Assembly (NCBI GenBank): GCA_012729505.1
Contig: JAAYDA010000003.1
Span: 1 to 44,544, forward strand
Source of the DNA: Syntrophomonadaceae bacterium
GTDB taxonomy: Bacteria; Bacillota; Syntrophomonadia; Syntrophomonadales; DTU052
DNA: 44,544 nucleotides
Direction: 5' to 3'
The notes under the pieces were generated by a model, which was not told the DNA's origin, did not search any database, and saw only the letters and a list, made by a program, of their open reading frames with translations. The translations under genes were made by a program, and so were the position numbers. How positions within the stretch are numbered: the stretch's first letter is position 1; each line of letters opens with the position of its first letter. This document shows positions 26,762 to 37,120 of the stretch, one piece after another.

Positions 26762-26851
26762 GGAGGGGTGTCCGAGCGGTTGAAGGAGGCGGTCTTGAAA
26801 ACCGTTGAACCTTTGCGGGTTCCGTGGGTTCGAATCCCACCTCCTCCGCCA
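26762..26851 (+). tRNA. tRNA-Ser (anticodon TGA)
   Basis: The 90-base gene has acceptor GGAGGGG pairing with CTCCTCC, discriminator G and an encoded CCA. The anticodon loop is CTTGAAA. The long variable arm is typical of serine tRNAs, and the T arm is GTGGGTTCGAATCCCAC. Confidence 0.97.
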
Positions 26852-26870
26852 GATTATAATTGTATATTGA

Positions 26871-26964
26871 GGAGAGATGGCCGAGTAGGACGAAGGCGGT
26901 CGCCTGCTAAGCGATTAAGCGGCTAAACCCCGCTTCGTGGGTTCGAATCCCACTCTCTCCGCCA
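26871..26964 (+). tRNA. tRNA-Ser (anticodon GCT)
   Basis: The 94-base gene begins GGAGAGATGGCCGAG and ends CTCTCTCCGCCA. The anticodon loop is CTGCTAA, and it has a long variable arm and an encoded CCA. It reads AGC/AGU serine codons. Confidence 0.97.
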
Positions 26965-26972
26965 TTTTTTGC

Positions 26973-27049
<77 letters not shown>

Positions 27050-27066
27050 TTATTATGCTCTCATAC

Positions 27067-27143
27067 GCGCCCGTAGCTCAGCAGGATAGAGCATCGGTTT
27101 CCTAAACCGGGGGCCAGGGGTTCGAATCCCTTCGGGCGCACCA
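27067..27143 (+). tRNA. tRNA-Arg (anticodon CCT)
   Basis: The 77-base gene has the same GCGCCCG/CGGGCGC acceptor as its neighbour, anticodon loop TTCCTAA and an encoded CCA. It reads AGG. Confidence 0.97.
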
Positions 27144-28443: not shown

Positions 28444-29001
28444 TTAGCCGACTAGATCTAATTCGGCAGCAGCATCCTTCATGCCGTTTATAGTCCATTG
28501 TATGACAGTATCGATATCCATCTCCAGCATAGAACAGCCTGCCAGAATCAGCTCACGATTGACTCCTGCCGCAAAGCTGGGGGTTTTGAACTTCTTTTTA
28601 ACCGATTTGATCTCCAGATCAAGAATGCTCTTGCTGGGGCGCATATAGACAACTGCCGTAATCAGACCGGTGAGCTCGTCGATGGTGTATAAAACTTTCT
28701 CCATCCGGCGAGCAGGCTCAACATCGATACAGATGTTCCAGCCGTGAGAGATGGCCGCATGAATAATATCGTCACTGACCCCCTCTGCTTCCAGAAGCTC
28801 CTTGGTTTTATGGCAGTGTTCTTCCGGATAAAGCTCATAATCAAGGTCATGGAGTAAACCCACATTTCCCCAGTATTCCTCATCCTCCCCATACTGGCGG
28901 GCAAAATAGCGCATAACCGCCTCCACCGCCACCCCATGCTTGACCAGGCTGCTGTTCTGGTTGTATTTTTGCAGCAATGCGTAAGCTTCCTGCCGTGTCA
29001 T
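28444..29001 (-). CDS. HD-domain protein (HDIG-type hydrolase)
   Basis: The 185-residue protein has a metal-binding HD pattern: H22 (LVKHGVAVE), H51-D52 (LLHDLDYE) and a downstream histidine (HAAISHGW, 81-88). Similar HDIG proteins are phosphohydrolases, but the substrate is not predictable. The ATG has GGAGG upstream. It is convergent with tadA and divergent from sodA, so it forms a single-gene unit. Confidence 0.85.
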   Translation of the reverse strand: MTRQEAYALLQKYNQNSSLVKHGVAVEAVMRYFARQYGEDEEYWGNVGLLHDLDYELYPEEHCHKTKELLEAEGVSDDIIHAAISHGWNICIDVEPARRMEKVLYTIDELTGLITAVVYMRPSKSILDLEIKSVKKKFKTPSFAAGVNRELILAGCSMLEMDIDTVIQWTINGMKDAAAELDLVG

Positions 29002-29207
29002 AGTAATCTTCCTCCATCTTTATTTTTGATCCTTGAATATCCTCACTAATCCTAATTATATACTTCTCCGGGAACAAAGCTACCAGAACAAACCGGTCCA
29101 CCGTGGTGAATAATTAATGCAATATCCACAATAAGGGTGGAGTATGCTATAATATTTCTACCTGATTAAAGGGATGGAACCGAAAAATATCTAAAGAGGT
29201 GAATTTA

Positions 29208-29789
29208 ATGGAACACAAACTACCGGCATTACCATTTGCCAGTGATGCTCTCCAGCCAGTGATTTCCCCTGAGACTATAGAGTTTCATTATGGAAAACAC
29301 CACCAGACCTATGTCAACAACCTTAACAAACTGATTCAGGGTACCGAATATCAGGAAATGAGCTTGGAGGATATAGTCAAAAAGTCTTCCGGGGGATTAT
29401 TCAACAATGCGGCCCAGGTATATAATCATACTTTTTACTGGAATTGCCTCAGTCCTGATGGCGGTGGAGAGCCTACCGGAAAGCTGGCGGATTTAATTAA
29501 CCAGAGCTTTGGCTCATTCGCCGCATTCAAGCAGAAATTCTCCGACACGGCCATAGGCACGTTTGGGTCAGGCTGGGCCTGGCTGGTTAAGAATGCCGAC
29601 GGAACCCTGGGCATTGAAAGCACCGGTAATGCAGGGACACCCCTCGCTGCCGGAAAGACTCCGCTGCTCACCTGTGATGTGTGGGAGCACGCCTATTATA
29701 TTGATTATCGCAATGCCAGAGCAGCCTATGTAGAAAAATTCTGGGATATAGTCAACTGGAATTTCGTCGCCTCTAACTTAGAAAAATAG
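29208..29789 (+). CDS. sodA: superoxide dismutase (Fe/Mn family)
   Basis: The protein has 193 residues from the ATG at 29208 after AAAGAGG; a GTG nine bases earlier overlaps the ribosome site. Metal ligands are H27, H74, D157 and H161 ([36 protein letters not shown]). It converts superoxide to peroxide and oxygen and is expected to be cytoplasmic, with no signal peptide. A TATAAT-like element lies about 55 bases upstream. Fe or Mn preference cannot be settled by eye. Confidence 0.96.
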
Positions 29790-29824
29790 GGGATTACCCA
29801 AACCAGAGAGGAAGAACCTCCTCA

Positions 29825-29853
29825 TTGACAGAAAGTGCCCATTTTATTAGAAT
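29825..29853 (+). promoter_or_regulatory. promoter of tRNA-Ser(CGA)
   Basis: TTGACA (29825-29830) and TAGAAT (29848-29853) are 17 bases apart, ending 17 bases before the tRNA. Confidence 0.85.
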
Positions 29854-29870
29854 GAATGAGCACTTAAGAA

Positions 29871-29962
29871 GGAGAGATGGCTGAGTCCGGCTGAAAGCGC
29901 ACGACTCGAAATCGTGTGGGCGGGTGACCGTCCCGTGGGTTCGAATCCCACTCTCTCCGCCA
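29871..29962 (+). tRNA. tRNA-Ser (anticodon CGA)
   Basis: The 92-base gene begins GGAGAGATGGCTGAG and ends CTCTCTCCGCCA. The anticodon loop is CTCGAAA, flanked by ACGA/TCGT. It has a long variable arm and an encoded CCA. Confidence 0.97.
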
Positions 29963-29968
29963 TTTTGT

Positions 29969-29994
29969 GTGACAAGGGGACGGGGTTCTGTCAC
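29969..29994. repeat. REP-like short palindrome
   Basis: GTGACA (29969-29974) and TGTCAC (29989-29994) enclose AGGGGACGGGGTTC. This GTGACA...GGGGACGG...TGTCAC pattern is reminiscent of REP elements mobilised by IS200-like transposases. No transposase is in the window. Confidence 0.45.
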
Positions 29995-30037
29995 CCTATT
30001 GACTTTTAATGAGCTGACGTAATATTATACATCTAAT

Positions 30038-30091
30038 AAGGCTATGAAGGTCTGAGACCTGTATGCAGCAGGGGCAGGACTTCATGGCCTT
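30038..30091 (+). terminator. hairpin between tRNA-Ser(CGA) and the methyltransferase gene
   Basis: AAGGCTATGAAGGTC (30038-30052) pairs almost fully with GACTTCATGGCCTT (30078-30091), and CTATTTTCTG follows. It may terminate the tRNA transcript or act as a leader hairpin of the next gene. Confidence 0.45.
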
Positions 30092-30121
30092 CTATTTTCT
30101 GTAATTTAAGGGGTGACTATA

Positions 30122-30940
30122 TTGAGCATAGAGGAAATTCGGGAGAAATGGCGTCAAAGACAAACCAACATTCAGGCCAGCATAGATATGTGGAATTCAA
30201 GGGCAGAGAGGTTCGGAGAATTTATTCTGCCGGAGGCAAAGGATAATTCCTTTTTAAGGCTGCTGGAAGAAAAGAATATGCTGGGTCCGGAAAAGCTGGT
30301 TTTGGATGTAGGGTGTGGCGCTGGAAAGTATGCTTTGGCCATAGCCCCCAGCTGCCGTCATATAACCGGTGTGGATTTATCTCCTGAAATGATCGGGATT
30401 GCCCGGAAAAAAACGGTGGAATACCATATCGAAAATGTAGATTTTTTCGTGGAGGATTGGCATCAGCTGGATATTGAAAAGACCGGATACACAAATAAGT
30501 TTGATCTGGTCTTTGCTCATATGACTCCGGCTGTTCAAAGTGCCGAAAGCTTTGAAAAGCTTTCGGCGGCCTCCAGGGGCTGGTGTGTGTTATCCAAGCC
30601 GGTAAGGAGAACTGATCCGGTATCTGATAAGGTCAAAGAGCTGGTTGGCATCAAGGAACGCAGGGAGAGTGCTGATAATGACATCTTGTTTGCTTTTCAG
30701 CTTTTATGGCTGCAGGGATATCTGCCTCAGCTGGAATATGAGAAGAAAATTTGGAATTTGCAGCAGACTTTGGAAGAGGCCTATGGGTTGTATGTTAACC
30801 GGATAAAAACTTACCGGGACATTACTGAGGCAGAGGAAGAGAAGGTAAAAGCTTATCTGAGATCACTGGTTCGGGATGGTTTCATTTATGAGGATACGGA
30901 TACCACCATCGCAACCTTGTATTGGCAGGCAGGATCATAA
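30122..30940 (+). CDS. class I SAM-dependent methyltransferase
   Basis: The protein has 272 residues from the TTG at 30122, eight bases after AAGGGG; a GTG nine bases earlier falls within the ribosome site. SAM motif I VLDVGCGAG is at about 60-68 and the acidic end of strand 2 in GVDLSPEM. The C-terminal half is helical and Glu-rich. The substrate is unknown. It is flanked by hairpins and stands alone, with the Cys-rich small-protein cluster convergent downstream. Confidence 0.85.
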   Translation: MSIEEIREKWRQRQTNIQASIDMWNSRAERFGEFILPEAKDNSFLRLLEEKNMLGPEKLVLDVGCGAGKYALAIAPSCRHITGVDLSPEMIGIARKKTVEYHIENVDFFVEDWHQLDIEKTGYTNKFDLVFAHMTPAVQSAESFEKLSAASRGWCVLSKPVRRTDPVSDKVKELVGIKERRESADNDILFAFQLLWLQGYLPQLEYEKKIWNLQQTLEEAYGLYVNRIKTYRDITEAEEEKVKAYLRSLVRDGFIYEDTDTTIATLYWQAGS

Positions 30941-30968: not shown

Positions 30969-31043
30969 ATGAGGCTGCAGGACGGCAAGAAAGCTCAAAT
31001 GGCTGAGGATTTCGGCGGGTTTAAAAAGCTAAAGCTGGAATGA
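30969..31043 (+). CDS. possible 24-residue small ORF
   Basis: The ATG at 30969 opens a short Lys-rich frame, MRLQDGKKAQMAEDFGG..., ending in TGA. GGAGAAAGGTG lies upstream but 10 or more bases too far. It could be a remnant or chance. No family is recognised. Confidence 0.2.
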   Translation: MRLQDGKKAQMAEDFGGFKKLKLE

Positions 31044-31047
31044 AGTT

Positions 31048-31083
31048 AAGCCCAGAGCCGCTCTTTTGGGAGACTCTGGGCTT
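31048..31083 (-). terminator. probable terminator of the small Cys-rich cluster
   Basis: AAGCCCAGAG (31048-31057) pairs with CTCTGGGCTT (31074-31083) around a 16-base loop. It lies nine bases beyond the stop codon of the last cluster gene and may also stop plus-strand transcripts. The following T-content is low on both strands. Confidence 0.55.
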
Positions 31084-31091
31084 TGAAGGGA

Positions 31092-31316
31092 TTAGCCTAC
31101 GGGAAATCCGGGACACTGGGCGTTGTAATTGTTTATCCAGGTGTTGCCAAAGATAAAGAACTTTATGCTCCTGGGGCAGCAACACGCACGGGAGGATCCG
31201 CAGCCAGAGGCCACTTCGGGTTCATCCTGGCAGCGCAGCAGGGACATGATCTGTTCTGCATTTTGGGCTACGGCGGCGATATTCTCCGGGGTTATAACAT
31301 TGGGCATCTCAGTCAT
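31092..31316 (-). CDS. small Cys-rich protein, copy A (unknown family)
   Basis: The protein has 74 residues from the ATG at 31316, which follows AAAGGAGG. Residues 4-28 form a likely helix (MPNVITPENIAAVAQ..., continuing to LLR). Then comes a variable linker with CGSSRACCCP (39-48) and the shared C-terminal block IKFFIFGNTWINNYNAQCP (51-69). There is no signal peptide. I do not recognise the family. The Cys cluster suggests metal binding or disulfide cross-linking, perhaps in a spore or envelope structure, but that is inference. It is the last gene of four on this strand. Confidence 0.75.
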   Translation of the reverse strand: MTEMPNVITPENIAAVAQNAEQIMSLLRCQDEPEVASGCGSSRACCCPRSIKFFIFGNTWINNYNAQCPGFPVG

Positions 31317-31387
31317 TCTTCGATTTACCTCCTTTATATAATTATTTATAAACACATCAAGTCTGATTAAATATTCACCGTATGTCT

Positions 31388-31621
31388 CTAAAAGGGAACC
31401 TCGGGGCACTGGGAATTGTAGTTATTGATCCAGGCATTGCCAAAGATAAAAAACTTTATCTGTCCAGGGCAGCAGCAGGCAACGGAATTGCGGTCTGGTC
31501 CACAACTTGAGGCTACCGGTTGAGGCTGTTCTTTTCCCCGCAGCAGGGACATGATCTGCTCTGCATTTTGGGCTACGGCGGCGATATTCTCCGGGGTCAA
31601 AACAGTGGGCATTTGAGCCAT
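31388..31621 (-). CDS. small Cys-rich protein, copy B (unknown family)
   Basis: The 77-residue protein is a close paralogue of copy A: an N-terminal helix TPENIAAVAQNAEQIMSLLR (9-28), a linker with CGPDRNSVACCCP (40-52), then IKFFIFGNAWINNYNSQCP (55-73) and EVPF. The start ATG has AGAAAGGAGG about eight bases upstream. The helix-coding DNA is nearly identical to that of copy A (one difference in 58 bases), which indicates a recent duplication or gene conversion. Function unknown. Confidence 0.78.
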   Translation of the reverse strand: MAQMPTVLTPENIAAVAQNAEQIMSLLRGKEQPQPVASSCGPDRNSVACCCPGQIKFFIFGNAWINNYNSQCPEVPF

Positions 31622-31716
31622 TCATCTGACCTCCTTTCTGCTGACAGTATCATAGGGAGTAGTGTGCCTAAATGCCGGATAAAGGTTGTTAGTAATGTAT
31701 TGGTGACTGAATGTAA

Positions 31717-31875
31717 TTAGCAACAAGCAATTCCACAACAACAAGATGAGTCAGAGGATACTGATTCCGGGCATTGAGAATTGTAGTTGTTGACCCAGGC
31801 GTTCCCGAAAAAGAAGAACCTTATATTATCGGGGCAACAGCAACTGGGCGCGACTGGAAATGGTCTGCAAGACAT
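31717..31875 (-). CDS. small Cys-rich protein, copy C (52 residues, lacks the N-terminal helix)
   Basis: The ATG at 31875 has GGGAGG eight bases upstream and ends with TAA at 31717-31719. Residues 1-11 are MSCRPFPVAPS, then CCCPDNIRFFFFGNAWVNNY and NSQCPE, matching the C-terminal block of copies A and B. It lacks the TPENIAAVAQ helix and gains a Cys-rich tail (CCCGIACC, 45-52), for 10 Cys in 52 residues. No family is recognised. Confidence 0.72.
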   Translation of the reverse strand: MSCRPFPVAPSCCCPDNIRFFFFGNAWVNNYNSQCPESVSSDSSCCCGIACC

Positions 31876-31880
31876 TCAAA

Positions 31881-32351
31881 TTACCTCCCTTTATAGCTTT
31901 GATCCATTATATGGTTCCTGCTAAAAAGGGGTTCCATTGCAAGAGAATTTTGGTTATTGGGTTTAGGGCAGGTTCTATTCTGATTCATAACCCAAACATT
32001 ACCCATTATTAACAGTCTCATTTCCGAGGAAAGCAAACCTTTCTCCGGGTCCTCATCTTCGCCCAGAATATCCAGTTTAATCAGCTTGCTCGCTTCTTCC
32101 GGAAGCAGTATGGATGGATCGGTTAGCTTATCTTTCCAAAAGCCGTTTTTATTATGGGGGCATAGCCAGCACACAAAGCAATTGGAATCAGGAGCACATT
32201 TTTGGCCCGTATGGCTGGGCTTGGTGGAGCAGGAGTAATTTCCCCCTGACCTACTTTTGCATCCCTGATAATTGCCTTGGTTTTTTTGATGCATTATGAT
32301 TCTCACCAGATTAATCACTTCCTTATCCTTGATTGACAGGAATTCAGACAA
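31881..32351 (-). CDS. Cys-rich protein, divergent copy D (first gene of the cluster)
   Basis: The protein is up to 156 residues. The start is uncertain: TTG at 32351 has no ribosome site, and GTG at 32318 or ATG at 32294 (GGTGAG upstream) are alternatives. It contains NCFVCWLCPHN in the middle and, near residues 113-131, LLIMGNVWVMNQNRTCPKP, which fits the G-N-x-W-[IV]-x-N-x-N-x-x-C-P signature of copies A-C. The rest is unrelated to them. It ends five bases before the start of copy C, so all four genes probably form one operon. Function unknown. Confidence 0.65.
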   Translation of the reverse strand: MSEFLSIKDKEVINLVRIIMHQKNQGNYQGCKSRSGGNYSCSTKPSHTGQKCAPDSNCFVCWLCPHNKNGFWKDKLTDPSILLPEEASKLIKLDILGEDEDPEKGLLSSEMRLLIMGNVWVMNQNRTCPKPNNQNSLAMEPLFSRNHIMDQSYKGR

Positions 32352-32451
32352 ACAAAGGAATTTATGACATTATATTACCAGAGATATTAAACTGTTCTTA
32401 AAATGGCGAAGGATAATGAAAAACAGAAGCGAAACCATTGATTAAAGCCAT

Positions 32452-33299: not shown

Positions 33300-33632
33300 T
33301 TATTCTAATTCTTCTTCCAGAACCTCTCCGAACAGGATACGCAGATAATCCCGGCGACCATAGATCACCCGATCCACATAGACCTCATCACCCTGCACTC
33401 GATAGAATGTAAGAAAATTTCCATGTACAAGAAATCGGTAATCGCTTTCCACATTGGCAATGGAGGACAAGGGCGGTCCCGCTAAAGCATGGCTTTGAAG
33501 AATACGCATACCCTTTGTGATTTTTTTCAAAGTAGAGAGTGCTGCAGTGGGATTTTCCAGTTCTTTAGAAAAGTATTCCTTAATTTCCGCGAGGTCGGCC
33601 TGTGCTTCCTTAGATAAATGCAGGTTATTCAT
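33300..33632 (-). CDS. RelE/ParE-superfamily toxin
   Basis: The 110-residue protein from the ATG at 33632 has the fold pattern of the family: helix LSKEAQADLAEIKEYFSKEL, then strand segments YRFLVHGNFLTFYRV and VYVDRVIYGRRDYLRILFG near the C-terminus. RelE-type members cut mRNA on the ribosome and ParE-type inhibit gyrase; I cannot say which. Its start overlaps the antitoxin gene by 8 bases, the usual coupling. In this zone it is probably acquired. Confidence 0.88.
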   Translation of the reverse strand: MNNLHLSKEAQADLAEIKEYFSKELENPTAALSTLKKITKGMRILQSHALAGPPLSSIANVESDYRFLVHGNFLTFYRVQGDEVYVDRVIYGRRDYLRILFGEVLEEELE

Positions 33633-33879
33633 GTTTGATACCGAGATGTTCCTCCACGGCCTCCAACGTGAGCCAACCTTCCTGCTCACCGGACTTTCTG
33701 CCCTTTGCAAGTTCGTTCATAAGGCGGAGCGTAGCCTGTGTTTTCTCATAGTCCTGTATATCTACAATGGCGTACTTGCCCCGCCCGTTCTTTGTCAAAA
33801 ACACAGGAGCACCTGCAGATACATCACGCAGCACCTCGCTATAATTCCGTAAATCAGAAATTGGCTTAATGTTCGGCAT
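33625..33879 (-). CDS. Phd/YefM-family antitoxin
   Basis: The 84-residue protein from the ATG at 33879 (AAAGGAG upstream) has the Phd/YefM pattern MPNIKPISDLRNYSEVLRDV, then PVFLTKNGRGKYAIVDIQDYE. The C-terminal part, which neutralises the toxin, is acidic. Such proteins repress their own operon. TATAAT (33904-33909) and TTGTTT (33925-33930), 15 bases apart on the minus strand, are a possible promoter, with a CTGCGAATTTGCAG near-palindrome just beyond. Confidence 0.92.
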   Translation of the reverse strand: MPNIKPISDLRNYSEVLRDVSAGAPVFLTKNGRGKYAIVDIQDYEKTQATLRLMNELAKGRKSGEQEGWLTLEAVEEHLGIKHE

Positions 33880-33993
33880 GTTGATCAGCTCCTTTCTGCT
33901 TATATTATATGCCATATTGCTGTAAAACAAAACTGCGAATTTGCAGCGTAATTTCATAAAAGATAAACCTACAAAACGAAAGGAGAAACCCCC

Positions 33994-37027: not shown

Positions 37028-37120
37028 GGAGAGATGGCTGAGTGGTCGAAGGCGCTCGACTGGAAATCGAGTAGGCGGGTAGCCCCTGTCTCGAGGGTTC
37101 AAATCCCTCTCTCTCCGCCA
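37028..37120 (+). tRNA. tRNA-Ser (anticodon GGA)
   Basis: The 93-base gene begins GGAGAGATGGCTGAG and ends CTCTCTCCGCCA. The anticodon loop is CTGGAAA between CTCGA and TCGAG. It has a long variable arm and an encoded CCA. Confidence 0.97.

Follow-up and report, generated by a model that had tools for sequence, protein, structure and literature searches.

Tandem genes for small Cys-rich proteins in Bacillota, predicted to be under SigK control and probably encoding components of the spore envelope

The DNA analysed here is a stretch of 44,544 nt, which we call the window as a whole. On its minus strand lie four consecutive genes for small Cys-rich proteins, in the order D-C-B-A. The genes and the signals around them are as follows.

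31092–31316, minus strand: gene A, an open reading frame (ORF) of 74 amino acids with the same architecture as gene B
31388–31621, minus strand: gene B, an ORF of 77 amino acids with the helix TPENIAAVAQNAEQIMSLL, a linker, and a core of CCCP plus KFFIFGNAWINNYNSQCP
31717–31875, minus strand: gene C, an ORF of 52 amino acids, 10 of them Cys, with a core of CCCP plus FFFFGNAWVNNYNSQCP
31881–32306, minus strand: gene D, the first gene of the cluster, 141 amino acids from the more likely GTG start at 32306
31905–31933, minus strand: predicted SigK-type promoter of C, with a −35 element AACC (31933–31930), a 16-nt spacer and a −10 element CATATAATG (31913–31905)
32368–32396, minus strand: weaker, SigK-like candidate promoter of D, AACA-N16-AATATAATG (p = 0.04)
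31030–31095, minus strand: stem-loop just after gene A (−21.8 kcal/mol, z = −3.9), with no T-run

A six-frame translation of the window contained four matches to the motif GNxW[IV]xNxNxxCP, all within genes A–D, and 200 mononucleotide-shuffled windows contained none. In A, B and C the motif directly follows CCCP, which D lacks, and four Cys are invariant among these three proteins (three in CCCP and one in the CP of the motif). These results bear out a sequence-only reading of the same DNA, which had described four consecutive minus-strand genes with a common motif, three of them carrying CCCP. Cys makes up 8.1, 6.5, 19.2 and 5.0% of A, B, C and D, respectively. A shares 74% identity and the N-terminal helix TPENIAAVAQNAEQIMSLL with B. 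C is without this helix and carries a second Cys cluster, as that reading had also noticed; the extra cluster, SSCCCGIACC, forms the C-terminus of C and was seen in the window only, not in the sister genomes described below. The strong stem-loop that follows gene A is a probable transcript end.

Gene D begins with an N-terminal domain that differs from A–C and contains Cys, a CxxC-like CWLCP and a helix, followed by the shared hairpin MRLLIMGNVWVMNQNRTCP. Its longest ORF (31881–32351) encodes the 156 residues that had been given as an upper limit, and this ORF is present; the start that it implies gives way to the GTG at 32306, where VRIIMHQKNQGNY aligns with [MVL]K[IV]V-HEK--GK[YF] of other D genes, and the 141-residue form is more likely. 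The last ~20 residues of D in the window (31881–31950) run through the region that in sister genomes is the intergenic promoter of C. Because D of the sister genomes stops before this region, the tail is probably a recent read-through, or a young C-terminal extension, rather than a functional domain.

A genome-wide search for extra copies, which the sequence-only reading had proposed as a check, found none in the rest of the genome of origin (2.45 Mb, 80 contigs). The cluster is present, however, in four more genomes of GTDB family DTU052, to which the window, judging by the shared family label, also belongs. A 2026 paper places DTU052 in the class Syntrophomonadia and describes potential butyrate oxidisers in it (PMC13248872). 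In three sister genomes the gene order is again pcm (divergent)-D-C-B-A, and tadA lies past A if the contig extends that far; in the sister genome G002 the cluster is split by contig ends. Pairwise dN/dS values were ~0.1–0.5 for A–D where dS was measurable and not saturated, so that all four genes look maintained, under purifying selection. No match was found in the 58 other genomes of the order and class that were sampled, and the ORFs listed around pcm in G052 and G010, which represent other families of the order, included no relatives.

These searches suggested a family restricted to one lineage, an idea that was overturned by searches of the phylum and of a second class. A phylum-wide profile search gave matches in the genomes G173 (E = 4e-11) and G437 (E = 1.7e-4), and with the profile extended by the members from both, 9 of the 154 genomes of G437's class had a match, among them G472 with two tandem genes and G480 with two tandem pairs. 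The G173 gene is incomplete at a contig end (MDYPKMPELVTPELVNTLVQNAG...TTCCCPLFLKFKFILCNVWIFNENA). The common layout starts with a short helix at the N-terminus, continues through a variable linker to a Cys cluster ending in Pro, and then has a strand of alternating hydrophobic residues, a turn, a second strand T-I-N-N-G and a Cys. Over the family the cluster takes the forms CCCP, CSCP, CVAP, CEVP, CAVP and CGWP; in the distant branch only one of its Cys is invariant, and an additional Cys lies downstream in W-x-F-C. Profile-profile comparison joined the core of the DTU052-family proteins to the distant branch with 93.2% probability (E = 3e-7), and the C-terminus of D to A/B/C with 93.9% probability; D against the distant branch was not significant. 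Judged by these profiles, the family spans three Bacillota classes, and the possibility that homologues exist nowhere outside this locus is contradicted by the cluster in four sister genomes and by the distant members in two other classes. Some further weak matches (L080–L082) were set aside as chance, having the wrong context, internal stops or an incomplete motif. Viral contigs and plasmids contained no relative, and a phage or plasmid origin was accordingly rejected.

None of A–D matched a Pfam family at E ≤ 10, and the distant members gave nothing beyond chance matches to Pfam. NCBIfam, PHROGs and the PDB held no matching family or solved structure; the PDB "hits" were helices of designed proteins and were rejected, and Rfam gave nothing at the locus. 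The sequence-only reading had recognised no family and had left room for a confident hit to a known one; no such hit emerged from these four protein collections. By sequence comparison, then, the family is real and undescribed. AlphaFold2 (AF2) models built on shallow alignments had mean pLDDT values of 53.5 for B and 32.1 for D. The model of B has two short N-terminal helices and a beta-hairpin at residues 57–66 at low overall confidence, and in both models a strand-turn-strand hairpin covers KFFIFGNAWINN or its counterpart in D. Because the models are poor, a beta-hairpin fold with the conserved Asn is only suggested by them.

The best functional clue came from the promoter regions. In C. 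difficile, the SigK promoter has a −35 element "AC", different from that of SigE promoters, and a −10 element "CATATAAT" (PMC3789822); SigK promoters of B. subtilis have a gap of 14–16 nt (PMC517825). We wrote the SigE and SigK matrices manually, following the known consensus and with some of the sequences already seen, and scored the SigK-type consensus mAC-N15/16-CATAnnnT with a cut-off of at least 10. This score was reached upstream of family genes in 13 of 15 regions, a set that includes close relatives, compared with 1 of 92 control regions, taken from intergenic DNA before other genes of these loci (Mann-Whitney p = 5e-9 for the SigK scores of the two sets) and 0 of 15 reverse complements of the family regions. 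None of 500 column-permuted motifs reached the family median, and the SigK-type sites lie at plausible promoter distances.

In the window, the candidate promoter of C lies within the read-through end of D and scored 12.8 (p = 0.003, 300 dinucleotide shuffles); the SigK and SigE values were 12.0 and 5.1. The AATATAATG element of the weaker D site recurs upstream of D in sister genomes. Neither B nor A has a good SigK site to itself in the window, so transcription of these two genes probably comes by read-through from C or starts at weaker sites. As a contrast we used spoIVA, a SigE gene: in six genomes of the order it scored 11.4–15.0 for SigE versus 4.9–7.6 for SigK, whereas most head genes of the family score SigK, and SigE was therefore rejected as the common regulator for most heads. 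Gene B of the sister genomes scored SigE or mixed. Overall, late mother-cell control of the family by SigK is predicted. G006 (locus L077), the closest complete genome within the order, has spoIVA with a SigE-type promoter.

SpoIVA, the product of the core gene for the spore-coat basement, was found in all five DTU052-family genomes that carry the cluster, and in G006. It was also found in 8 of the 9 positive genomes of G437's class, but because 137 of all 154 genomes of that class have it, this co-occurrence is uninformative; G468, a well-covered positive genome, gave no SpoIVA match. A gerA operon lies within a few kb of a family gene in G461 and G459, with GerA and Spore_permease identified by Pfam in G461. 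In G480 a tandem pair stands beside three YheC/YheD-like ATP-grasp genes, which belong to a family connected with the endospore coat of B. subtilis. In the window, the neighbours are PCMT, a class I methyltransferase, a superoxide dismutase (SOD), a ParE/Phd-YefM pair, an AMP-binding ligase and housekeeping genes, together with some genes that have no Pfam match. The lack of an adjacent maturation enzyme, which had been pointed out from the sequence, holds among the assigned neighbours, where neither a peptide-maturation enzyme nor an exporter was found; no maturation enzyme was seen in the conserved neighbourhood of the sister genomes either.

Because the family occurs in three spore-forming lineages and has SigK-type promoters, its members are most likely building blocks of the spore envelope. 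Our preferred reading, to which we give a probability of about 0.7, is that A–D are Cys-rich structural proteins of the coat or exosporium, produced in the mother cell at a late stage under SigK control, with SigE acting on B in addition or instead. A spore or envelope structural set was among the roles that the sequence-only reading had listed, and this role gains from the SigK-type promoters, the hosts with sporulation genes, the GerA or YheC/YheD neighbours of some members, the Cys-richness and the tandem duplication.

Three other roles have to be weighed against this one. In one, the proteins would bind metal or Fe-S during sporulation, with CCCP and the downstream Cys coordinating a metal for storage or delivery. 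The four invariant Cys of A/B/C could form a Cys4 site, D has the CxxC-like CWLCP, and one D-type protein weakly matches an Fe-S domain (E = 0.03). However, the distant members vary the Cys cluster, keep one of its Cys invariant and have another Cys (WxFC) downstream, and the loss of single Cys from the cluster is easier to reconcile with a cross-linker than with a fixed metal site, which should keep its ligands. We consider this role unlikely; for the metal handling that had been listed more generally, nothing points there, and late mother-cell promoters do not suggest a metal role. A germination-related protein, or another late mother-cell protein outside the structural coat, would agree with the relatives within a few kb of gerA operons and with the fact that the genes under SigK include non-structural ones. 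Other relatives, though, have no ger genes close by, and the proteins are very short and Cys-rich, are multiplied in tandem and show no enzyme-like conservation, all of which makes this role decidedly improbable.

The third role, also listed in the sequence-only reading, is that of precursors of a ribosomally made peptide, modified or secreted, in which the helix would be the leader and the CCCP-hairpin the core. A helical N-terminus and a Cys-rich C-terminus in tandem genes do resemble some leader/core layouts. The supposed core is nevertheless the best conserved part rather than the most variable one, variation being concentrated in the linker; C has no leader and D has an unrelated N-terminus; and neither the assigned neighbours nor the conserved neighbourhood offers a maturation enzyme or an exporter. 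It would be very surprising if this role proved correct.

As spore-envelope proteins, A–D may act in the following way. The conserved promoters suggest that the late mother-cell RNA polymerase would transcribe D-C-B-A. The N-terminal helix of A and B might then self-associate or dock on underlying coat proteins. The C-terminal module consists of the Cys cluster, a weakly predicted hairpin rich in aromatic and beta-branched residues and Asn, and one or more further Cys; such modules could pack edge to edge with those of the same or paralogous proteins. By analogy with Cys-rich spore proteins such as CotY, ExsY and CsxA, the conserved Cys would link subunits by disulphides and so lock the layer. 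D, which has a separate N-terminal domain and lacks CCCP, may serve as an adaptor, and C, with an extra Cys tail and no helix, may be a cross-linking variant. A location of the family in the spore coat or exosporium and, probably, disulphide cross-linking of its proteins are what we infer from this comparison. A bolder and much more doubtful extension is that the CCCP-hairpin-NN module acts as a novel unit of assembly, in which hairpins rich in aromatic residues and Asn stack edge to edge and are locked by Cys on both sides, giving a disulphide-stapled amyloid-like layer or fibre whose principle would be distinct from the lattices of CotY/ExsY/CsxA and from Ena fibres. If it were true, spores of deep-branching anaerobic Bacillota would carry an amyloid-like layer or fibre.

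To our knowledge, A–D are much shorter than CotY and ExsY, and the CCCP-hairpin-NN module has not been described for them. Self-assembly and disulphide cross-linking are known for Cys-rich spore proteins whose sequences are unrelated; CsxA, CotY and ExsY form ordered arrays that are disassembled only by harsh reducing conditions, and many Cys-rich proteins of spore formers have been proposed to act likewise (PMC7333573). A–D resemble CotY/CotZ/ExsY, proteins of the coat crust and exosporium in Bacillus, in being Cys-rich, predicted late mother-cell products in paralogous sets, CotY/CotZ/ExsY forming disulphide-linked lattices (PMC7333573), but differ in that they match no Pfam family at E ≤ 10. 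CsxA of the Clostridium sporogenes/botulinum exosporium offers a further likeness, as a Cys-rich, self-assembling protein of the spore surface in a clostridial lineage (PMC7333573). It is set apart here by the fact that A–D match no known family rather than by direct comparison; CsxA is often near collagen-like proteins, whereas none was seen beside the family loci.

The layout of CdeC and CdeM differs from that of A–D. Both are Cys-rich C. difficile proteins needed to build the exosporium (PMC6101409), and to that extent they are alike to A–D as proposed here; the difference is again that A–D match no known family, an indirect comparison. With ~30 residues, the hairpin module seems too small to be a subunit of the Ena type, and AF2, in which we looked for the Ena jellyroll with its N-terminal connector, gives a helix and a hairpin only, at low confidence. 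The DUF3992 model of Pfam matched neither A–D nor the distant members. The Ena/DUF3992 subunits of endospore appendages in the Bacillus cereus group are small Cys-bearing spore proteins that are encoded by adjacent paralogous genes, as are A–D, and form highly resilient fibres (PMC12921279, PMC8619143). By Pfam, the family is unrelated to CotY/ExsY and DUF3992, and functionally it is most likely of the same kind as the Cys-rich spore-envelope proteins. We conclude that it is the same kind of protein as CotY/ExsY, CsxA and CdeC but unrelated to them, CsxA and CdeC having been compared indirectly.

Little work has been done on the spore coats of anaerobes that belong to neither Bacillus nor Clostridium, and the undescribed family provides a recognisable module and a predicted regulon across three Bacillota classes. 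The profile now allows annotation of an orphan Cys-rich set. Against a role in spores, Syntrophothermus lipocalidus, which belongs to the same order and is in culture, was reported to be non-sporulating (PMC3035303). The family DTU052 comprises uncultivated candidate syntrophic butyrate oxidisers, and our results are evidence that these syntrophs may keep a working late sporulation programme, although this relative is recorded as non-sporulating.

Several minor features were observed around the loci. The incomplete G173 gene is preceded by an ORF of lysine/aspartate-rich repeats with a coat-like low-complexity composition (L078, 956–1384). Between gene A and tadA of the window (28444–30940) lie an ORF without a Pfam match, which is HD-hydrolase-like by eye, a gene for an Fe/Mn superoxide dismutase and one for a class I methyltransferase. 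Because tadA is the next gene beyond A at L019 and L020, this interval looks like an insertion in the window or a loss at those two loci. On the other side, a ParE-like toxin and a Phd/YefM-like antitoxin (Pfam; 33300–33957, minus strand) lie between pcm and the AMP-ligase gene, and this pair is absent from the matching interval of L020 and L021. ARAGORN placed six tRNA genes (four Ser and two Arg) at 26762–27143, 29871–29962 and 37028–37120, and the short ORFs over 29794–30022 are translations of a tRNA gene rather than genes.
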